Notes under the pieces: model-generated
Databases searched by the model: none
What the model was told of the DNA's origin: nothing
What the model saw: the letters and a program-made list of their open reading frames with translations, nothing else
Translations under genes and position numbers: made by a program
Shown here: positions 31,444-51,245 of the stretch, in pieces
Position numbering within the stretch: position 1 is the first letter of the stretch
How the letters are laid out: every line of letters begins with the position of its first letter
From: Myxococcales bacterium
GTDB lineage: Bacteria; Myxococcota_A; UBA9160; UBA4427
Reading direction: 5' to 3'
DNA length: 59,719 nucleotides
Assembly: GCA_022563535.1 (NCBI GenBank)
Contig: JADFNE010000024.1
Location: 1-59,719 of the forward strand

Positions 31444-31752
31444 TCAGGCCAGCAGGCCGAACCCGGATTCGAACGCCACGGTTCCGTCCTCGGAAACCGA
31501 AAAACCCACAGTGGCGTGCGGCTTGAACCAGCGATCGCTGTTCACCTCGCAGGCGCTGCCCGAAACCGTGAGGGTTGGGTCGCGGCTCGACCCGACGCTC
31601 ACGTGCATTTCCAGGCGATACTCGGTTCCAGATTTACCGGTGGCGATCTTGACCGGCTCGTGGCCGACGAGTTCGATCAACTCGCGGCGGCGCCAACTCC
31701 GATACGGAGAGACGAAATGGGCCAGCAGGGCTTGCGCTTCGGGCAGGTTCAT
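31444..31752 (-). CDS. Hypothetical protein upstream of the HIP-type operon
   Basis: A 102-residue soluble protein of unknown family. It has an N-terminal helical part (MNLPEAQALLAHFVSPYRSW, RRRELIELVGHEPV) and a beta-rich remainder (EYRLEMHVSVG, PTLTVSGSACEV, ATVGFSVSEDGTVAFESGF), a balanced pattern that looks like a true fold. It starts at the ATG at 31752; the frame is open to 31881. It is divergent from the ipdA operon, and the palindrome at 31848 lies between them, so both may answer to the same regulator. Confidence 0.6.
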   Translation of the reverse strand: MNLPEAQALLAHFVSPYRSWRRRELIELVGHEPVKIATGKSGTEYRLEMHVSVGSSRDPTLTVSGSACEVNSDRWFKPHATVGFSVSEDGTVAFESGFGLLA

Positions 31753-31836: not shown

Positions 31837-31870
31837 TGCTTTACAGAAACGATACGTATCGTTATTGTAT
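31837..31870 (+). promoter_or_regulatory. Promoter with a 16-bp palindromic operator
   Basis: The perfect palindrome AACGATACGTATCGTT occupies 31848-31863. It falls in the spacer between a possible -35 (TTACAG, 31841-31846) and -10 (TATTGT, 31863-31868), a classic position for a repressor site. Size and symmetry fit a TetR-family dimer. It lies about 190 bp before ipdA and about 100 bp before the divergent gene at 31752. It differs from the AnCAAG-type KstR2 site of actinobacteria. Confidence 0.6.
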
Positions 31871-32053: not shown

Positions 32054-32902
32054 GTGGATAAACGAACCACCGAGCAGGAAGTCATCGACGAATTGCGCGA
32101 TGGCATGACGATCGGGATCGGGGGCTGGGGCTCGCGACGCAAGCCGATGTCGCTGGTGCGCGAAATCATTCGCTCGAAACTCAAGGATCTCACCATCGTT
32201 TCCTACGGCGGCCCTGACGTCGGGCTGCTGTGCGCCACGGGCAAAGTAAAGAAAGTCATTTACGGCTTTGTCTCCCTGGACTCGATTCCTCTCGAACCCC
32301 ATTTCCGAATCGCACGACAGACCGCTTCGATCGAAGCAGTCGAACTCGACGAAGGCATGCTGCAATGGGGATTGTTGGCGGCCGTGCATCGGGTTCCATT
32401 CCTTCCGACTCGCGCGGGCCTGGGATCGGATCTGGAAAGAAACAACCCCGATTTCAAGCGGATCCAATCCCCCTACGACGACGGCGAGACCTTCATCGCC
32501 ATGCCCGCGTTGGAACTCGACGTGGCCCTCATCCACATGAACCGCGGCGATGAATCGGGCAACGGTCAGTTTCTCGGCCCGGACCCCTTCTTCGACGACC
32601 TCTACTGCCTTGCGGCCAAGCGCCGATTCATGTCGGTGGAAAAAATCGTTCCAACCCAGGACCTGATCAAGCAAGCCAGCGTCCACACCCTGCGGATCAA
32701 CCGCACCATGATCGACGGAGTGATCGAAGCCCCAAACGGAGCGCACTTTACCGAGTGTCCCCCGGACTACGAGCGCGACGAAGCATTCCAGAAAGAATAC
32801 GCCGCGACGGCAAAGGATCTCGAAGCCTGGGAAGCGTTCAAGAAGCGCTACCTCGATGTGTCCTCGGAGAAGGAATATCAGGAGGCTGTAAAGTCTCGAT
32901 GA
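32054..32902 (+). CDS. ipdA: IpdA-type CoA-transferase-fold ring hydrolase, alpha subunit
   Basis: A 282-residue class I CoA-transferase alpha-type subunit that closely resembles mycobacterial IpdA: MTIGIGGWGSRRKPMSLVRE, LTIVSYGGPDVGLLCATGKV, YGFVSLDSIPLEPHF, FLPTRAGLGSDLER, ETFIAMPALELDVALIHMNR and VNRMMVDA-like INRTMIDGVIEAPNGAHFT. With IpdB it forms a hydrolase, not a transferase, that opens steroid ring C of COCHEA-CoA in HIP catabolism. The GTG at 32054 has AAAAGG upstream and matches the family N-terminus (DKRTT); the frame is open from 31994. ATGA overlap with ipdB. Confidence 0.9.
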   Translation: MDKRTTEQEVIDELRDGMTIGIGGWGSRRKPMSLVREIIRSKLKDLTIVSYGGPDVGLLCATGKVKKVIYGFVSLDSIPLEPHFRIARQTASIEAVELDEGMLQWGLLAAVHRVPFLPTRAGLGSDLERNNPDFKRIQSPYDDGETFIAMPALELDVALIHMNRGDESGNGQFLGPDPFFDDLYCLAAKRRFMSVEKIVPTQDLIKQASVHTLRINRTMIDGVIEAPNGAHFTECPPDYERDEAFQKEYAATAKDLEAWEAFKKRYLDVSSEKEYQEAVKSR

Positions 32903-33660
32903 GCGAATTCACTAGAGCTGAACAATGTGCGGTCGCGATTGCAGAATGCTTTCGAGGTGACGGAGAAATTTTGGTGAGTCCGATCGGGAACCTGCCGATA
33001 CTCGGCGCGCGCCTGGCCAAACTCACCTTCGAGCCCGACATCTTGCTGACCGACGGCGTGGCTTCGATCGTCTCGACTTGCCAACCCATTGGCGGGGCGC
33101 CCGGCCCCGAACCGATCGTCGAAAGTTGGATGCCGTACCGCACGATTTTCGAGTGCGTGGCTTCCGGACGTCGCCATGTCATGATGGGCGCGACCCAGAT
33201 CGATCGCTTCGGCAACCAGAACATCGCCTGCATCGGTGACTTCAAGAAGCCCAAGGTTCAACTCCTCGGACTGAGAGGAGCGCCGGGCAACACGATCAAT
33301 CACACCACGAGCTATTGGGTGCCAAATCACAGTCCCAAGGTATACGTAGAGAAAGTCGACGTCGTTTCGGGACTCGGCTACGACCGCGCCGCGGCATTGG
33401 GTCCCGAGGGCTCCCGCTTCCACGAAATCCGGCGGGTGGTGTCCAACCTTTGCGTCATCGACTTTGGCGGCCCGGATCACGCGATGCGGCTCGTGTCGGT
33501 TCACAACGGTGTCACGATCGACGAGGTCGTCGCGGCGACGAGTTTCGAATTGGTGACCGAAGACGTCGGTGAAACCCGCGCGCCTAGCGACGCTGAACTC
33601 ACGATTCTGCGCGAGCAGTTGGATCCAAACGCAATTGCGACCAAAGAGGTCCCGGGCTGA
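32899..33660 (+). CDS. ipdB: IpdB-type CoA-transferase-fold ring hydrolase, beta subunit
   Basis: A 253-residue partner of IpdA. Marks: EFTRAEQCAVAIAECFRGDGEI, ILLTDGVASIV, GRRHVMMGATQIDRFGNQNIACIGD, LRGAPGNTINHTTSYWVPNHS, VDVVSGLGYDR, RRVVSNLCVIDFGGPDHAMRLVSVH and TSFELV. In mycobacteria the IpdAB complex cleaves ring C during cholesterol C/D-ring degradation. The start overlaps the ipdA stop (ATGA), giving 1:1 coupling. The longer frame back to 32755 overlaps ipdA and is not used. Confidence 0.9.
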   Translation: MSEFTRAEQCAVAIAECFRGDGEILVSPIGNLPILGARLAKLTFEPDILLTDGVASIVSTCQPIGGAPGPEPIVESWMPYRTIFECVASGRRHVMMGATQIDRFGNQNIACIGDFKKPKVQLLGLRGAPGNTINHTTSYWVPNHSPKVYVEKVDVVSGLGYDRAAALGPEGSRFHEIRRVVSNLCVIDFGGPDHAMRLVSVHNGVTIDEVVAATSFELVTEDVGETRAPSDAELTILREQLDPNAIATKEVPG

Positions 33661-33691: not shown

Positions 33692-34747
33692 TTGTCTTCT
33701 GCACTCCACACCGAAATTTGTGACCGACTGGGTATCCGCTACCCGATCATTCAGACAGGCATGGGATGGGTCGCGACCCCCGAGCTCGTGGCGGCGGTGA
33801 GCAATGCTGGCGCGATCGGTTTTTTGGCGGCGGCGACCATACCTCCAGCTGAAGTCGAGGCCGCGATCCTGGACGTAAAGAAGCTGACCGACAAACCGTT
33901 CGGCGTAAATTTTTTGATGGACGCGCCGGGCGCCGATGTCATTACTGAGGCGATCATCCGCCAGGGAGTCAAGGCGGCGGGATACAACCGGGCCCCCAAT
34001 GCGGACTTGATCGGAACTCTCAAAGACGCGGGCGTCGTATGTGTCCCGACCTGCGGTGCCGTGAAACACGTGCAGAAGGCCGAGCAGTTGGGTGCGGACA
34101 TCGTGGTCGTTCAGGGCGGGGAAGGCGGTGGGCATACGGGACCCGTTCCAACTTCGATTTTGTTGCCCGCTGCTGCCGCTGCCGTCGATATCCCTGTCGT
34201 CGGTGCAGGGGGCTTCAAGGACGGCAGGGGGTTGGTGGCTGCGCTCGCATTCGGAGCCGCCGGAATCGCGATGGGAACCCGCTTCGTCCTGACCCAGGAG
34301 AGTCCGGTACCCAAGACGAGCACCGATCGTTTCCTGGCCGCCGAGGTCGCGGATGTGGTCGTCACGAGACAGATCGACGGTCTGCCCCAACGCGTCGTGA
34401 TGAATGAATTGGTAAGGCGCCTCGAAGAAGCGTCGCCATTGGTGCGCTTGCTCCTGGCGCTGCGCAACGGGCTCGCCTTCCGCAAAACGTCCGGTGCATC
34501 CGTTTCCGAACTGGTAAGCAGCGCGCTCAAAATGCGCCGCAACCAACGGCTGACCAACGCCCAGACGATCATGGCCGCCAACGCGCCAATGCTCGCGAAG
34601 AAGGGCATGGCGGAGGGCGATCCGATCAACGGCTACCTGCCCGGCGGCAGCATCGCGGGGGTCATTGACGACATTCCAACCTGTGAAGAATTGATCCAAC
34701 GAATCATGAGCGAAGCCGAGACCACGATCTCGGCGCTCGCGAACTAG
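33692..34747 (+). CDS. ipdC: IpdC-type flavin oxidoreductase (nitronate monooxygenase family)
   Basis: A 351-residue TIM-barrel FMN protein of the nitronate monooxygenase family, closest in motif order to mycobacterial IpdC: LGIRYPIIQTGMGWVATPELVAAVSNAG, KPFGVNFLMDAP, VVQGGEGGGHTGPVPTSILLP, VVGAGGFKDGRGLVAALAFGA and MGTRFVLTQESPVP. IpdC acts on a hydroxylated HIP-derived CoA ester during ring C/D breakdown. The likely start is TTG at 33692 behind TGGAG; earlier in-frame positions overlap ipdB. It follows ipdB by 31 bp. Confidence 0.87.
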   Translation: MSSALHTEICDRLGIRYPIIQTGMGWVATPELVAAVSNAGAIGFLAAATIPPAEVEAAILDVKKLTDKPFGVNFLMDAPGADVITEAIIRQGVKAAGYNRAPNADLIGTLKDAGVVCVPTCGAVKHVQKAEQLGADIVVVQGGEGGGHTGPVPTSILLPAAAAAVDIPVVGAGGFKDGRGLVAALAFGAAGIAMGTRFVLTQESPVPKTSTDRFLAAEVADVVVTRQIDGLPQRVVMNELVRRLEEASPLVRLLLALRNGLAFRKTSGASVSELVSSALKMRRNQRLTNAQTIMAANAPMLAKKGMAEGDPINGYLPGGSIAGVIDDIPTCEELIQRIMSEAETTISALAN

Positions 34748-34759
34748 ACGGGAACCCGT

Positions 34760-35518
34760 ATGGCAATCGACATCGAAGTAAATGACGGCATTGGCGAAGT
34801 GGTGATCAACAATCCGCCGGTGAACGCGCTGGGGAGCCAGGACTGGTTCGAATTTGCAGCGGGGATCAAGGCCCTGGGCGAAAACCCGGACGTCAATTGC
34901 GTCGTGATTCGCGCCGAGGGCAAGGGCTTTCAGGCGGGAGTCGACATCAAGGAACTCGCGCAAGACAGCAGCAAGATTCTCGAGGTGAACCGCGGCTGCT
35001 ACGACACCTTCGGCAATATCTACGATTGTCCCATCCCGGTAATCTCGGCGGTTCACGGCTACTGCATCGGCGGCGGCATCGGAATCGCCGGTGCTTCGGA
35101 TATCGTGATCGCGTCGGAGTGCGCCACGTTTTCTCTTCCCGAAATCGATCGCGGGGCGCTGGGCGCGGCGACCCACTTGATGCGGCTGTTCGGCATGCAG
35201 AAGACCCGCCGCATGCTCTACACCGGTGAGGCGATCGATGTCCAGGAGGCGTATCGCCTCGGCGGTGTCGAATCGATCGTGCCCAAAGAAAAGCTGCGCG
35301 ATGAAGCGATGAAGCTCGCGCGCTGCATTGCGGATAAATCCCCCAAGGCGCTGCGCCTGGCCAAGTTGTCGCTGAACGGGATCGAATTGCTGGATCCCAA
35401 GGAGAGCTACAAATTTGAACAGGGGCTCACCTTGGAATTGTATAAGTCGTCGGATTCCCAGGAAGCGCGCGACGCGTTCTTGGAAAAACGAGAGGCCAAC
35501 TTCACCGACAAATCGTAG
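34760..35518 (+). CDS. echA20: EchA20-type crotonase-fold ring D hydrolase
   Basis: A 252-residue crotonase-fold protein very similar to EchA20, which in mycobacteria opens steroid ring D of HIEC-CoA. Matching segments: NNPPVNALGSQDWFEFAAGI, VVIRAEGKGFQAGVDIKEL, NRGCYDTFGNIYDCPIPVISAVHGYCIGG in pieces, GGGIGIAGASDIVIASECATFSLPEI, DRGALGAATHLMRL and the C-terminal SYKFEQGFTFEL-like YKFEQGLTLELYKSS. Gene order ipdA-ipdB-ipdC-echA20 mirrors the local neighbourhood of the actinobacterial genes. It starts 12 bp after ipdC. Confidence 0.9.
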   Translation: MAIDIEVNDGIGEVVINNPPVNALGSQDWFEFAAGIKALGENPDVNCVVIRAEGKGFQAGVDIKELAQDSSKILEVNRGCYDTFGNIYDCPIPVISAVHGYCIGGGIGIAGASDIVIASECATFSLPEIDRGALGAATHLMRLFGMQKTRRMLYTGEAIDVQEAYRLGGVESIVPKEKLRDEAMKLARCIADKSPKALRLAKLSLNGIELLDPKESYKFEQGLTLELYKSSDSQEARDAFLEKREANFTDKS

Positions 35519-35586: not shown

Positions 35587-36756
35587 ATGGATCTCAATTT
35601 TACATCCGAACAAATGGCTTTCCGTAGCGAAGCCCGAACCTGGCTGGAGAGCAACGTCCCTTCGGAACCGCTGCAGTCATTCGATACCAAGGTGGGCTTC
35701 GAAGAACACCGGGACTGGGAGCAAAAGCTCAACGCCGGAGGCTGGGCAATGGTTCCCTGGCCCGTCGAATACGGCGGGCGCGGGGCCAATCTTCTCGAGT
35801 GGCTGATTTTCGAAGAGGAGTACTACCGCGCCGGTGCACCGGCGCGCGTCAACCAGAACGGGATCTTCTTGCTCGGCCCCACCATCATGGAGTACGGAAC
35901 CGACGAACAGAAGGCGCGCTTCTTGCCCGCGATGGCGTCGAGTGAAGAGGTCTGGGCCCAGGGTTGGTCCGAACCCAACGCCGGTTCCGACATGGCCAAC
36001 ATCCAGGCCAGCGCAATTCTCGACGGCGACGAATACGTGATCAATGGACAAAAGACCTGGGCCTCGCGTGGCGCCTACGCGCACTGGCTCTTTGGCATGT
36101 TCCGCACGGATCCCGATTCGAAGCGACACCACGGACTCACCTTCATCTTGTGTCCCCTCGACGCGCCGGGGATCACCGTGCGGCCGATCGAAAAATTGAG
36201 CGGCAAGGCGGCCTTCGCCGAGGTGTTCTTCGACAACGCCCGGGTCAAGGCCGAAAACCGTCTCGGTCCGATGGGCGAAGGCTGGGGGGTCGCGATGGCG
36301 ACTGCGGGCTTCGAGCGCGGCTTGATGTTGCGCAGCCCCGCGCGTTTTCAGAACACCGCGCGCAAGCTCGTCGAACTTTATCGCGAGACTCATGCGCAAG
36401 GAGAACTCATCGACGCTTCCGTTCGCGATGGTGTCGCGCGTTGTTGGATGGACGCCGAGGCCTACGCGCTAAACACGTACCAAACGGTTTCACGCATGAT
36501 GGCGGGAGGCAAGATCGGCGCCGAGGCGAGCTTGAACAAAATTTTCTGGTCCGAGCTCGACATTAAAATGCACGAACTCGCCCTCGAACTCCTCGGCTCG
36601 CGAGGCGAACTGCTGCCGAGCGCCCCCGCGGCAAAGGGTGTTGGCGATTGGCTCGACGGTTTCATCTTTGCCCTGGCGGGTCCCATTTACGCGGGCACCA
36701 ACGAAGTGCAGCGCAACATCATCGCCGAGCGCATTCTCGGTCTCCCCAGGAAATAG
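35587..36756 (+). CDS. Acyl-CoA dehydrogenase, FadE30/31-like, catalytic subunit
   Basis: A 389-residue acyl-CoA dehydrogenase. It has MVPWPVEYGGRGANLLEWLIFEEEYYRAGAP in segments, GYSEPNAGSD-type AQGWSEPNAGSDMANIQ, YVINGQKTWASRGAYA, MATAGFERGLMLR and the C-terminal GPIYAGTNEVQRNIIAERILGLPR. The Glu in FERG matches the catalytic base of the steroid-type FadE enzymes. The closest relatives by motif are FadE30 and FadE31 of the HIP pathway. It is 5 bp from the next acyl-CoA dehydrogenase gene, which lacks this Glu, suggesting a mixed alpha2-beta2 complex. Confidence 0.88.
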   Translation: MDLNFTSEQMAFRSEARTWLESNVPSEPLQSFDTKVGFEEHRDWEQKLNAGGWAMVPWPVEYGGRGANLLEWLIFEEEYYRAGAPARVNQNGIFLLGPTIMEYGTDEQKARFLPAMASSEEVWAQGWSEPNAGSDMANIQASAILDGDEYVINGQKTWASRGAYAHWLFGMFRTDPDSKRHHGLTFILCPLDAPGITVRPIEKLSGKAAFAEVFFDNARVKAENRLGPMGEGWGVAMATAGFERGLMLRSPARFQNTARKLVELYRETHAQGELIDASVRDGVARCWMDAEAYALNTYQTVSRMMAGGKIGAEASLNKIFWSELDIKMHELALELLGSRGELLPSAPAAKGVGDWLDGFIFALAGPIYAGTNEVQRNIIAERILGLPRK

Positions 36757-36761
36757 TCGAC

Positions 36762-37823
36762 ATGGATTTCGGATTTACAGAAGACCAACAACTCCTGCAG
36801 CAAACCGTGCGCGACTTTCTCGAGGGTGAATGCACGGTCGAGCACGTGCGCTCGCTGTGGGACACTGAAACCGGGCGTAGCCCGGCGTTCTGGCAGAAGC
36901 TCGCCGAGATCGGGATATCGGGACTGCTGGTTCCCGACGAGCACGGGGGCCTGGGGATGAACGAGGTCGATATGGTTCTCGTCCTCGAAGAAACCGGTCG
37001 CGCGGCCCTCGCCGAGCCCGTGATCCACACCGCCTTCGTGGGGGTGCCGCTGCTGGTAGAAGCCGGGGACGAGGCGCTGGCAAAGAAATGGCTTCCCAAG
37101 GTCGCCGATGGCTCTGCGATCCTGGCCGTCGCCCACGCCCAAAGCCCCTTCGTGAGTGATGCCCACGTTGCCGACCTGCTCCTGCTCAACTCGGGGGACG
37201 CCGTCCACGCGGTCCCCCGGGCCGACGCAAGCGTCACCCCGCAGTCCGCCAACGACCCGGCAAAGCGAATTTTTACCGTAGACTGGACTCCGCGTTCCAA
37301 GATGCTGCTCGCGGATGGCGAAGCCGGAAAACAACTTCAAGCCAAAGCCTTCGATCGCGGTGCCCTGGCAAGCGCCGCCCAGTTGTTGGGCGTGGTGCAG
37401 CAGCTACTCGACATGGCCGTGCTCTACGCGACCCAGCGCAAGCAGTTCGGCGTACCGATCGGTTCGTTCCAGGCGGTGAAGCACATGCTCGCCGACGAGA
37501 AGGTCAAGATCGAATACGCGCGCGCCCTCGTGTATCGCGCCGCCGATTCGCTGGCCCACGATGTACCGAGTCGCGCGGTGGATGTGTCGATGGCGAAGAT
37601 CGCCGGGGCGGAGGCCGCGGTATCGACGGCGAAGACGGCGCTTCAGGTCCACGGAGCGCTCGGCTATACCTGGGAGCAGGATCTTCACGTCTGGATGCGG
37701 CGCGCCTGGTCCCTCGATTCCGCCTGGGGAACTACGGCGTATCATCGCGCCCGGTTGGCAAATGGAGTGATCGACGGAAACAGTCCCGCGGTAAACTTCG
37801 GGTATCAAGCTCCCGCGGCATAG
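36762..37823 (+). CDS. Acyl-CoA dehydrogenase, probable non-catalytic partner subunit
   Basis: A 353-residue acyl-CoA dehydrogenase homologue with a shortened middle domain. N-terminal FTEDQQLLQQTVRDFLEGEC and PDEHGGLGMNEVDMVLVLEE, C-terminal TQRKQFGVPIGSFQAVKHMLAD and KTALQVHGALGYTWEQDLHVWMRRA are typical. In the place of the FERG catalytic Glu it has KAFDRGALA. It therefore resembles the FadE32/FadE33 type subunits that pair with a catalytic partner. The ATG at 36762 follows the upstream stop by 5 bp; the frame is open from 36648. Confidence 0.85.
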   Translation: MDFGFTEDQQLLQQTVRDFLEGECTVEHVRSLWDTETGRSPAFWQKLAEIGISGLLVPDEHGGLGMNEVDMVLVLEETGRAALAEPVIHTAFVGVPLLVEAGDEALAKKWLPKVADGSAILAVAHAQSPFVSDAHVADLLLLNSGDAVHAVPRADASVTPQSANDPAKRIFTVDWTPRSKMLLADGEAGKQLQAKAFDRGALASAAQLLGVVQQLLDMAVLYATQRKQFGVPIGSFQAVKHMLADEKVKIEYARALVYRAADSLAHDVPSRAVDVSMAKIAGAEAAVSTAKTALQVHGALGYTWEQDLHVWMRRAWSLDSAWGTTAYHRARLANGVIDGNSPAVNFGYQAPAA

Positions 37824-37858
37824 TGGAAAGGCATAGTGGAAGGCATAGTGGAAAGTAA
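37817..37858. repeat. Tandem repeat GGCATAGTGGAA(A)
   Basis: Three copies of a 12-13 bp unit (GGCATAGTGGAAA, with small changes) start at the last codon of the acyl-CoA dehydrogenase gene. Each contains a TAG. The repeat lies in the short spacer before the DUF35 gene and may be slippage derived. Confidence 0.75.
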
Positions 37859-37874
37859 AGCGAGGAGAGCAAGC

Positions 37875-38303
37875 ATGGCAGAACAAGTTCCCGCAATCGA
37901 AGGATGGTTCACAACCGGTCCCGAGCCCAAGTTGCTCGGTAGCCAATGCAGTGGCTGCAAGACCTACTTCTTTCCCAAAGAGACGACCTACTGCCGCAAC
38001 CCCGGCTGCCAGTCGACTGCGTTTGAAGAAGTGGAGCTGAGTCGCACCGGGACCATCTGGTCCTATACCGAGCACTACTACAAACCGCCGGCTCCCTACA
38101 TCGCCGACGAGCCCTTCGAGCCCTACACGATCGCGGCGGTAGAACTCGCCGACGAAAAACTCGTGGTGCTCGGTCAAATGGCCGCCGGAGTCAATCACAG
38201 CGACCTCAAGGCGGGCATGCAAGTGGAACTCGTGGTTGAACGTGCTTACGACGTGGAAGACGTCGAGCACACCATGTGGAAGTGGAAGCCGCTCGCGGCC
38301 TGA
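37875..38303 (+). CDS. DUF35 OB-fold, zinc-ribbon acyl-CoA-associated protein
   Basis: A 142-residue protein with an N-terminal rubredoxin-like zinc ribbon (GSQCSGCKTYFFPKETTYCRNPGCQ: two CxxC-type knuckles) and a C-terminal OB-fold (TGTIWSYTEHYYKPPAPYIADEPFEPYTIAAVEL). DUF35 proteins act together with thiolase-like Ltp proteins, and in steroid side-chain degradation such pairs form aldolases. It sits directly before the Ltp-like gene, 28 bp apart, supporting a complex. GAGGAGAG precedes the ATG at 37875. An earlier ATG-less frame from 37836 reads through the tandem repeat and is rejected. Confidence 0.88.
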   Translation: MAEQVPAIEGWFTTGPEPKLLGSQCSGCKTYFFPKETTYCRNPGCQSTAFEEVELSRTGTIWSYTEHYYKPPAPYIADEPFEPYTIAAVELADEKLVVLGQMAAGVNHSDLKAGMQVELVVERAYDVEDVEHTMWKWKPLAA

Positions 38304-38331
38304 TCGGATTTTTCCGGCGAGGAGAAGACAG

Positions 38332-39519
38332 ATGAGCAAGGACGTCGCAGTTCTCGGTGTGGGAATGCATCCCTGGGGCAAATGGGGAAAGAACTTTGTC
38401 GAATACGGCGTTGTGGCTTGCAACGCCGCACTCAAGGACGCGGGGATCGACTGGAAGGAAGTCGATTTCATTTCGGGCGCCGAGACTGTGCGCAACGGCT
38501 ACCCGGGCTATGTCGCGGGCGCCACGTTTGCCCAGGCGCTCGGCTGGTCGGGCGCCTCGGTCGCGACTTCGTACGCCGCCTGCGCGTCCGGTGCCACCGG
38601 GATCAACGCCGCCCGCGCTCGCATCCTTGCCGGCATGAGCGACGTTGCACTGGTGATTGGTGCGGACACCACACCCAAGGGATTTCTCGCCCCCAACGCC
38701 GGCGAACGTTGGGACGATCCAGATTGGCTGCGCTTTCGCTTGATGGGTTGCACGAATCCCACCTATTTCGCCCTGTATGCGCGACGCCGCATGGATATTT
38801 ACGGCGCCACCGAAGAAGACTTCGCCCAGATCAAGGTCAAGAATTCGAACCACGGCTTTACCAATCCCAACGCGCGCTATCGAAAACAGTTCACCATGGA
38901 AGAGGTGTTGGGTTCGAACATGGTGGCGGAGCCCCTGCGCCTGTTCGAAATTTGCGCGACCAGCGACGGGGCGGCGTGCGTGGTGCTCACCAGCATGGAA
39001 TATGCACGCAAGCGCTCGCTCAAGCCCGTGCGGATCTCTGGGGTCTCGACCGTGACGCCGAAATTTCCGAGCACCGTGATCGAGATGCCGAATCTATCCA
39101 CCGATTCGGCATACAGCGTTTCGGTGCCCGACATGGCGTTCCGAGATTCGATCGCAGCCGCGGCCTATGAAGAAGCGGGTATCGGCCCCGAAGACATGTC
39201 GCTCGCCGAGGTCTACGACCTTTCATCGGCCCTCGAACTCGACTGGTATGAGAACATCGGTCTGTGCAAGCCCGGTGAAGCCGAGAAACTTTTGCGCGAC
39301 GGCGACACCACGATCGGGGGTCGCATCCCCGTCAACCCGAGCGGTGGGCTGGCGTGCTTTGGAGAAGCGGTTCCCGCCCAGGCGATTGCGCAGGTGTGTG
39401 AGTTGGTCTGGCAGTTGCGCGGAGATGCGGGAGATCGTCAGGTCGAAGGCGCCACGGCGGGAATCACCGCCAACCAGGGACTCTTCGGTCATGGATCGTC
39501 GGTGGTCTGCACGCGCTAG
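38332..39519 (+). CDS. Ltp-type thiolase-fold lipid-transfer/aldolase protein
   Basis: A 395-residue thiolase-superfamily protein of the sterol carrier protein X/Ltp group. It has VAVLGVGMHPWGKWGKNFVEYG, VATSYAACASGATGINAARARILAG (Cys at the thiolase nucleophile region), DVALVIGADTTPKGFLAP, a YFALYARRRMDIYGATEEDFAQIKVKN block in parts, and VNPSGGLACFGEAVPAQAIAQVCELV. Ltp proteins with DUF35 partners cleave or condense steroid-derived CoA esters. Position after DUF35 and before FadA6 supports such a role; whether it is an Ltp2-, Ltp3- or Ltp4-type enzyme is open. GAGGAGA precedes the ATG. Confidence 0.87.
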   Translation: MSKDVAVLGVGMHPWGKWGKNFVEYGVVACNAALKDAGIDWKEVDFISGAETVRNGYPGYVAGATFAQALGWSGASVATSYAACASGATGINAARARILAGMSDVALVIGADTTPKGFLAPNAGERWDDPDWLRFRLMGCTNPTYFALYARRRMDIYGATEEDFAQIKVKNSNHGFTNPNARYRKQFTMEEVLGSNMVAEPLRLFEICATSDGAACVVLTSMEYARKRSLKPVRISGVSTVTPKFPSTVIEMPNLSTDSAYSVSVPDMAFRDSIAAAAYEEAGIGPEDMSLAEVYDLSSALELDWYENIGLCKPGEAEKLLRDGDTTIGGRIPVNPSGGLACFGEAVPAQAIAQVCELVWQLRGDAGDRQVEGATAGITANQGLFGHGSSVVCTR

Positions 39520-39581
39520 TCGCGAGCCCTGCACACGGATCCGGAACGGAGCAAGGCAAAGAGCCGAGAGGAATTTGGAGC

Positions 39582-40730
39582 ATGCCAGAGGCGTACATCG
39601 TCGACGCGGTTCGTACCCCGGTGGGGAAGAAAAAGGGAAGCCTCGCGGCGGAACATCCCGCCGATCTCGGTGCGCATGTCCTCAAGGCGCTGATTGAGCG
39701 AAACGACATCGACCCGCTCGCGGTCGAAGATGTGGTGTTCGGTTGCGTCGACACGATTGGTCCGCAGGCGGGCGACATTGCGCGCACCTGTTGGCTCGCG
39801 GCCGGATTGCCCGAAGAAGTGCCGGGGACGACGATCGATCGTCAGTGTGGTTCTGCCCAACAGGCGCTGCACTTCGCCGCCCAGGGGGTCATGAGTGGCA
39901 CGCAAGATGTGGTGATCGCCGGCGGCGTGCAGGCCATGAATCTGATCCCCATTTCCTCCGCCATGACCTGTGCCGAGGGACTCGGCTTCAGCGACCCCTT
40001 CTCCACCAGCAAGGGTTGGGTCGAGCGCTACGGCACGGTCGAGGTTTCGCAGTTCAACGCGGCGGAGATGATCGCGGAAAAGTGGGACATCAGCCGAGAG
40101 GACATGGAGAAGTTTGCCCTGGAGAGCCACCGGCGAGCTCTCGCTGCGATCGCGGCAGGGCGTTTCAAGCGAGAGATCATCCCTTACGGTGACATGGACA
40201 CCGATGAACCGCCCCGAGAGTCGAGTCTGGAGAAGATGGCGTCACTGCGGACCCTGGTCGAAGGCGGCCGCCTGACCGCAGCGGTATCGAGTCAGATTGC
40301 AGACGCGTCGGCTGCGCTGCTGATCGTTTCTGAAAGAGCGCTCGAGCAACACAATTTGACCCCCCGCGCGCGGATCCATCATATGAGCGTTCGCGGTGCG
40401 GATCCGATCTGGATGTTGACGGCTCCGATTCCCGCAACGGCCTACGCGATGGAAAAGTCCGGGATGAAGCTTTCGGAGATCGATCTCATCGAGATCAACG
40501 AAGCCTTTGCTTCGGTGGTGCTCGCATGGCAGAAGGAAACGGGCGCGGACCTCGACAAGGTCAACGTGAACGGGGGTGCGATCGCATTGGGTCATCCGCT
40601 TGGCGCAACCGGTGCCCGCTTGATGACCACGATGCTCCACGAACTCGAACGCACCGATGGACGCTACGGTATGCAGACGATGTGCGAGGGCGGGGGTCAG
40701 GCCAACGTCACGATCATCGAACGGCTCTAG
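39582..40730 (+). CDS. fadA6: FadA6-type acetyl-CoA acyltransferase (thiolase)
   Basis: A 382-residue thiolase close to mycobacterial FadA6. Conserved blocks: EAYIVDAVRTPVGKKKGSLA, VFGCVDTIGPQAGDIARTCW, TTIDRQCGSAQQALHFAAQG (nucleophile Cys about 89), IPISSAMTCAEGLGF, GPRESSLEKM-like PPRESSLEKMASLRTLVEGG, ADPIWMLTAPIPAT, NEAFASVVLAW, VNVNGGAIALGHPLGATGAR (His) and MQTMCEGGGQANV (second Cys). FadA6 performs thiolytic cleavage late in HIP catabolism. All catalytic residues are present, unlike the Ltp upstream. The gene begins 62 bp after ltp. Confidence 0.92.
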   Translation: MPEAYIVDAVRTPVGKKKGSLAAEHPADLGAHVLKALIERNDIDPLAVEDVVFGCVDTIGPQAGDIARTCWLAAGLPEEVPGTTIDRQCGSAQQALHFAAQGVMSGTQDVVIAGGVQAMNLIPISSAMTCAEGLGFSDPFSTSKGWVERYGTVEVSQFNAAEMIAEKWDISREDMEKFALESHRRALAAIAAGRFKREIIPYGDMDTDEPPRESSLEKMASLRTLVEGGRLTAAVSSQIADASAALLIVSERALEQHNLTPRARIHHMSVRGADPIWMLTAPIPATAYAMEKSGMKLSEIDLIEINEAFASVVLAWQKETGADLDKVNVNGGAIALGHPLGATGARLMTTMLHELERTDGRYGMQTMCEGGGQANVTIIERL

Positions 40731-50020: not shown

Positions 50021-51245
50021 TGCGCGGCAGGCTGACACAGAAACGTGCCCCGCCATCGCTACCGGTTTCGATGTGAATCGATCCACCGGCACCTTCGATC
50101 AGTTTCTTGGTAATCGCCAGCCCCAATCCCCCCGCCCGGTCGTCATGGGTCGAGAAGAAGGGCTCGAACAAACGGTTTCGCATCGATTCGGATACCCCTG
50201 CGCCCTGATCCTCGACGCTGAACTCTACCTTGGTGTCGAATCGTTGGGCGCGCAGGGTCACGCGACTCGAAAAGGGCGCAGCCTCCAGGGCGTTGAGCAT
50301 CAGGTTCAGCAGAATTTGGCGCAGGGCATCTTCATCGATTGCGATGTCGTCGGTCGCAAGGTCGATCTCGGTCGAAAGCTTTATGTTGCGTTCCGCCGCC
50401 CGCTGTTTGAGCAGACTGAGTAGAGAAGAGAAAACCCGCTCGAGATCTGCGGTGTCATGGGCGGTTTCGCTCGCGACACGATTGGTCGCCGGTCGCGCGT
50501 GTTCGAGCAGCGTGTCGAGCAGGCGCTCCATGCGCTGGAGTTCTTCGAGGACGACACTGCGAAATTCTCCCTGAAAATCTGGATCATCGAGATGATCGGG
50601 CAGCAGGTGCAGGAAGGTCTTCACCGAAACCAGCGGATTGCGAATCTCGTGCGCGACTTCGGCCAGCAGGCTCCCCATCGTGGCCAATCGATCGAGGCGG
50701 CAGACCTCGGCGTCGAGTTCGGTAATGCGCGCGAGTGCAGTTGCGGCGGCGGCAGGAGTGCGGAGCCGGGCGACGGTTGCGCCGAGTGCCGCGAGGGTGC
50801 GGGGTCGAACGCCCCCCGGTGGATCGTCCGGGCCGCCGAGCAGCACCATGGCGATTCGCTCGTTGCCAGTGGAAACCAGCGGCATTGCGCAGCTCATGTC
50901 ATAGCGCGCTGCCAACTGTGCAAGCGCGCTCGGAGCGTCAGATGCTCCGAGATCAATCGGCTGATCCGTTGTCCAAAGAGTTTCGAGTGCCGCGAGGGCA
51001 TTTGCGTCAGGGGATTTGGGCGAGGTGGTGTCGCGGTAGGCCGCCGCGATCACATAGGGTTCCCCCTGCGGTCGCCACGCCCAGGCGCAGACCCGGAGGC
51101 TTCCGGTGGTTTCGGCGAGTCGCCGCAGCGCATCCGCGAGCAAGCTCTGGAGATCTCCAGAGTCGACGTACCCCAGCCGCGATTCGCACGGCTGGGTACG
51201 CTCGCTCCCAGGCGTTGACTGGTGCCTGGGATCGATCTCGAACAT
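50004..51245 (-). CDS. Sensor histidine kinase with GAF-like input
   Basis: A 413-residue soluble kinase with no membrane segments. Residues 30-170 look like a GAF-type sensory domain (LADALRRLAETTGSLRVCAWAW, MSCAMPLVSTGNERIAMVLLGG). HisKA: SLLAEVAHEIRNPLVSVKTFLHLLPDHL with the phosphoacceptor His. HATPase: LRQILLNLMLNALEAA (N box), VEDQGAGVSE (G1), FEPFFSTHDDRAGGLGLAITKKLIEGAGGSI (F and G2). The group resembles NtrB/ZraS/AtoS-type kinases that pair with NtrC-like regulators, and one lies at 55257 three genes away. Start at the ATG at 51245 behind GGGGGGTGG; a TTG at 51272 is possible. Confidence 0.88.
   Translation of the reverse strand: MFEIDPRHQSTPGSERTQPCESRLGYVDSGDLQSLLADALRRLAETTGSLRVCAWAWRPQGEPYVIAAAYRDTTSPKSPDANALAALETLWTTDQPIDLGASDAPSALAQLAARYDMSCAMPLVSTGNERIAMVLLGGPDDPPGGVRPRTLAALGATVARLRTPAAAATALARITELDAEVCRLDRLATMGSLLAEVAHEIRNPLVSVKTFLHLLPDHLDDPDFQGEFRSVVLEELQRMERLLDTLLEHARPATNRVASETAHDTADLERVFSSLLSLLKQRAAERNIKLSTEIDLATDDIAIDEDALRQILLNLMLNALEAAPFSSRVTLRAQRFDTKVEFSVEDQGAGVSESMRNRLFEPFFSTHDDRAGGLGLAITKKLIEGAGGSIHIETGSDGGARFCVSLPRITQPG

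Follow-up and report, generated by a model that had tools for sequence, protein, structure and literature searches.

The window analysed here is the whole 59,719 nt stretch of contig JADFNE010000024.1 from a Myxococcales bacterium. It carries a plus-strand gene cluster preceded by a promoter and a putative operator:

31840–31845, plus strand: −35 element (TTTACA) of the ipdA operon promoter, from a consensus scan and its fixed distance to the operator across 20 genera
31848–31863, no strand: putative operator, a perfect palindrome AACGATACGTATCGTT with core ACG-nn-ACGT-nn-CGT, from an exact sequence match and conservation
31863–31868, plus strand: −10 element (TATTGT; TAyTnT in relatives), sharing the last operator base, from a consensus scan and conservation
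32054–32902, plus strand: ipdA, alpha subunit of a CoA-transferase-type ring hydrolase, at the head of the controlled operon, GTG start (Pfam CoA_trans; closest solved chains 6co6_A, E 2e-100, and 6con_A)
32899–33660, plus strand: ipdB, beta subunit (6co6_B, E 1e-86)
33695–34747, plus strand: ipdC-like flavin reductase of the nitronate monooxygenase/FabK type (Pfam NMO; NCBIfam FabK-like, below cut-off)
34760–35518, plus strand: echA20-like enoyl-CoA hydratase family protein (NCBIfam NF005925, above cut-off)
35587–37823, plus strand: two acyl-CoA dehydrogenase genes (35587–36756 and 36747–37823; Pfam)
37836–40730, plus strand: ChsH2-type OB-fold protein, thiolase-like protein and thiolase (fadA6-like) (Pfam; ORF coordinates)

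The structures matched by IpdA and IpdB are those of IpdAB itself (6CO6/6CON). The gene families place the operon in HIP catabolism (PMC5380842), the degradation of the last two steroid rings (C/D rings). Lying on one strand with short gaps, the genes at 37836–40730 are probably the remainder of the ipdA operon.

The arrangement TTTACA-17-TATTGT matches the sigma-70-like consensus at 9 of 12 positions and is the sole promoter-like match between 31500 and 32300, lying on the plus strand; the palindrome occupies its 17-bp spacer. A first-pass annotation of this DNA had described a perfect 16-bp palindrome between plausible −35 and −10 elements, about 190 bp before ipdA, and all of this was confirmed, the interval from the operator end to the GTG being 190 bp. 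It had also placed the site between divergent genes. A minus-strand ORF is indeed found there (31444–31752), but shows no conservation except one weak match in the same genus, so that the geometry is unimportant, the ORF was ruled out as a second target, and the operator would serve the ipdA direction.

The symmetry of the site proves nothing by itself, because the window holds four perfect 16-bp palindromes where 1.3 are expected. Longer perfect palindromes occur at 35827–35846 (20 bp, within an acyl-CoA dehydrogenase gene) and 51145–51162 (18 bp). Whole-genome scanning, as advised in the first-pass annotation, found a single exact copy of the palindrome in the source genome, the one before ipdA, and one exact match to the degenerate pattern WACGNNACGTNNCGTW. 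When up to three mismatches were allowed, a two-mismatch match at C13:52006 fell within a longer ORF and was treated as chance.

The first-pass annotation held that its reading would fail if the palindrome were absent before orthologous operons, and the site proved to be conserved. Most of the genomes compared are metagenome assemblies. An alignment of one genome per genus from 20 genera shows that only the −35/palindrome/−10 block is conserved and that the flanks are random. The exact core ACGnnACGTnnCGT is present in 38 of 55 Myxococcota-type ipdA upstream regions (loci of genome_contigs with enough upstream DNA) and, with one mismatch, in 7 more; 45/55 therefore carry it with at most one mismatch, compared with 0.7% of mononucleotide shuffles. 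Some of the 55 loci have no site, and among Actinobacteria ipdA loci the figure is 1/23, close to chance. Two genomes of a second family, from another order of the same class, also carry the site (G062 and G063). Across the class, matches are near-unique per genome (91 genomes, no matches in the reversed control), and all of those examined precede ipdA or an acyl-CoA dehydrogenase gene, mostly fadE30. Chance occurrence of the palindrome between genes, which the expectation of 1.3 per window might allow, is refuted by conservation in 20 genera and two orders between random flanks, and by the unique genomic placement of the site before HIP genes; the probability of chance is close to nil.

The distance from operator to ipdA ranges from 14 to 325 bp among relatives. 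At loci L080, L081 and L082 only 14 bp separate the end of the operator from the ipdA start codon, against 190 bp in the window, which would leave the transcript with almost no leader. One genome that is 99% complete (G037) has ipdA at C83:46827-47669 with neither the operator nor the PhlF-like tetR described below, and must therefore control its HIP genes otherwise.

In mycolic-acid Actinobacteria, HIP catabolism is under the TetR-family regulator KstR2, which is encoded among the HIP genes (Kendall 2010, PMC3068626). In Mycobacterium, KstR2 has three binding sites with the motif AnCAAGnnCTTGnT: one at its own promoter, one at fadE30/fadD3 and one in the Rv3549c/Rv3550 region beside ipdABC (PMC3068626). 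The palindrome had been judged unlike the KstR and KstR2 sites, and this holds: AnCAAGnnCTTGnT does not occur in the window, CAAGnnCTTG is found in 0/55 of the Myxococcota-type ipdA upstream regions, and the one loose KstR-like match in the window, at 343, is far from the operon promoter. Control of the operon through KstR2 or KstR sites was ruled out by their absence from that promoter.

The source genome (G000) encodes 22 TetR_N proteins, none of them on the contig of the window, and a TetR profile search of the window ORFs gave no match, in agreement with the earlier statement that no tetR gene is present there. The candidate repressor gene adjoins fadD3 on another contig, C27:

G000:C27:34882-35469, minus strand: tetR, 196 aa, PhlF-like (PF00440 TetR_N, 49.9 bits against a cut-off of 24; TetR_C_11)

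Its product thus belongs to the TetR family by its TetR_N domain, and the palindromic sites overlapping its own and its target promoters are typical of the family, the identity of the binder being an inference. The tetR promoter bears a composite site ACGnnACGTnnnGTATCGTA, with TACGATACGTGCTGTATCGTA located 32 bp before the start; every other tetR upstream region of the source genome (21 in all) differs from the site by at least five mismatches. Relatives of this tetR were detected in 52 of 61 genomes, and 30 orthologues share an unchanged recognition helix, GKATIYRRW. The exact composite pattern ACGNNACGTNNNGTATCGTA occurs once per genome in 35 of the 61, in all 35 upstream of the C27-type tetR and on the same strand, at 33–214 bp in 30 genomes and about 1.4–1.6 kb in 5, apparently with a thiolase-like coding sequence in between. 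Among 379 genomes of the phylum, 47 members of the class carry it, as does one other genome, which has no related tetR nearby.

Both tetR and ipdA are present in 46 of the 61 genomes, ipdA only in 4, tetR only in 6 and neither in 5 (Fisher p 0.007, uncorrected for kinship); they share a contig in 14 genomes. Three of the four genomes with ipdA and no detected tetR are at most 85% complete. TetR genes lie near ipdA at L079, L090, L092, L158, L201 and L206, but the conserved tetR near fadD3 accounted for the data. Judged from sequence, the likely regulator of the ipdA site is the PhlF-type TetR of C27, encoded outside the window.

The gene beside tetR is a fadD3 (NF005801, 716 bits, cut-off 657), and fadE30- and ipdF-like genes diverge from it. 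The first-pass annotation had suggested looking for copies of the palindrome before fadD3 or a tetR gene, and related sites were found at both. The fadD3/fadE30 intergenic region of relatives contains a conserved related site, which in several genomes is a perfect ipdA-type site; the window's genus has a degenerate version. The sites at tetR, fadD3/fadE30 and ipdA suggest a regulon made up of tetR, fadD3/fadE30-ipdF and ipdAB. Half-sites abut at ipdA and are 5 bp apart at tetR, a difference in layout that counts against the proposed reading of both sites by one protein. The tetR and fadD3 sites resemble a couple of half-sites separated by 5 bp, or else two operators that overlap; we take them to be the probable target of a pair of dimers. 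An ipdA-like layout, TGA...17...TATCGT, seems by eye to recur in the tetR promoter.

We consider it very probable that the palindrome serves as operator for a TetR repressor of the HIP operon, most likely the PhlF-like, TetR_C_11-type protein encoded beside fadD3. Bound at 31848–31863, the repressor would fill the 17-bp spacer and bar RNA polymerase from the promoter of the ipdAB/ipdC/echA20 operon; it would likewise repress itself and the divergent fadD3/fadE30-ipdF pair, and would be released by an intermediate formed after FadD3 acts, most likely HIP-CoA. The operator, promoter geometry, conservation, regulon membership and tetR link are apparent at the sequence level. From these we infer DNA binding by the C27 TetR, repression and a ligand, with HIP-CoA as the probable effector by analogy. 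The original proposal of a TetR-type operator in the HIP promoter spacer is supported by the block conserved in 20 genera and by related sites at tetR and fadD3/fadE30.

A genuine HIP-operon operator might instead be bound by another protein, either another of the 22 TetRs encoded in the genome or a member of another family, with the PhlF-like TetR reading only its own composite site. The differing half-site spacing would be consistent with this. However, the core ACGnnACGT...CGT is common to both site types, the fadD3/fadE30 sites are intermediate between them (or of the perfect ipdA type in some genomes), the same gene clusters are involved, operator and tetR are both missing from G037, and the upstream regions of the other 21 tetR genes are all at least five mismatches from the site, making a different binder unlikely. 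Some TetR-family proteins act as activators, and the regulator could conceivably be an activator or dual regulator instead of a repressor, but with its centre between −35 and −10 the operator is in the position for steric block, and the spacer layout seemingly repeated at the tetR promoter points the same way; activation is highly improbable.

The C27 protein is not a KstR2 orthologue, which was ruled out by its TetR_C_11 domain and 21% identity to KstR2 (reference sequence verified against 4W1U); in the comparison of the genome's TetRs with KstR2 it comes 18th. In KstR2 the C-terminal domain is TetR_C_24, the recognition helix is SGSLYHHF instead of KATIYRRW, and the operator is AnCAAGnnCTTGnT rather than ACGnnACGTnnCGT. 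The two systems are alike in having the regulator gene among HIP genes and palindromic sites at the equivalent three promoters (own gene, fadE30/fadD3 and ipdAB-echA20), with the fadD3/fadE30 site degenerate in the window's genus. With equivalent promoters, another motif and another protein subgroup, the C27 TetR would work like KstR2 without being KstR2, and the earlier suggestion of a regulator different from KstR and KstR2 is borne out by the differences in both operator and protein.

PhlF, the repressor of 2,4-diacetylphloroglucinol synthesis in Pseudomonas, is the closest named relative among those tried. Of the 22 TetRs in the genome, the C27 protein is the one closest to PhlF (36% identity, 89 bits; next 37), and it shares with PhlF the TetR_C_11 ligand domain and the nearest solved chains, placing it in the PhlF clade; the pathway and ligand of PhlF are different. 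Its operator phlO, which we take to be ATACGAAACGTACCGTAT, would have the same ACG-nn-ACGT-nn-CGT layout as the ipdA site; the phlO letters were not found in open papers, and the likeness is treated as a lead. Among six PhlF-like genes on plasmids, two perfect cores lie upstream of one, and another has a core with one mismatch; the former, a Shinella gene (L262), carries its two ACGnnACGTnnCGT cores 24 bp apart.

Very few regulators have been linked to bacterial steroid degradation (PMC8700777), and bile-acid-degrading Proteobacteria reportedly lack KstR2 homologues (PMC8399759). EdcR of Caenibius, the TetR repressor of estradiol degradation (PMC8700777), also governs a steroid pathway outside Actinobacteria, but by its description it targets the upper estrogen pathway, not HIP genes, and is induced by estradiol and estrone. 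Our literature search turned up no HIP regulator described outside Actinobacteria, and nothing specific on steroid catabolism in this uncultured Myxococcota lineage. It is reasonably probable that a PhlF-type TetR independently took over the three HIP promoters of KstR2 in one Myxococcota class, as the first HIP-specific regulator outside Actinobacteria, and senses a CoA thioester through a ligand domain belonging to a clade in which the known member responds to a phenolic antibiotic. If so, the same regulon has been rewired around an unrelated repressor and operator. The finding supplies a named gene with its sites, and the C27 TetR is a candidate sensor for a steroid CoA intermediate.

A further site, ATACGAGACGATGCGTCTTGTAAAT, lies at G000:C27:45367-45387 (L296, ~1500–1520), some 55 bp ahead of a family III CoA-transferase gene that may be a fourth member of the regulon. 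At L240, a 66% identical family III CoA-transferase gene has a similar site at 43 bp.
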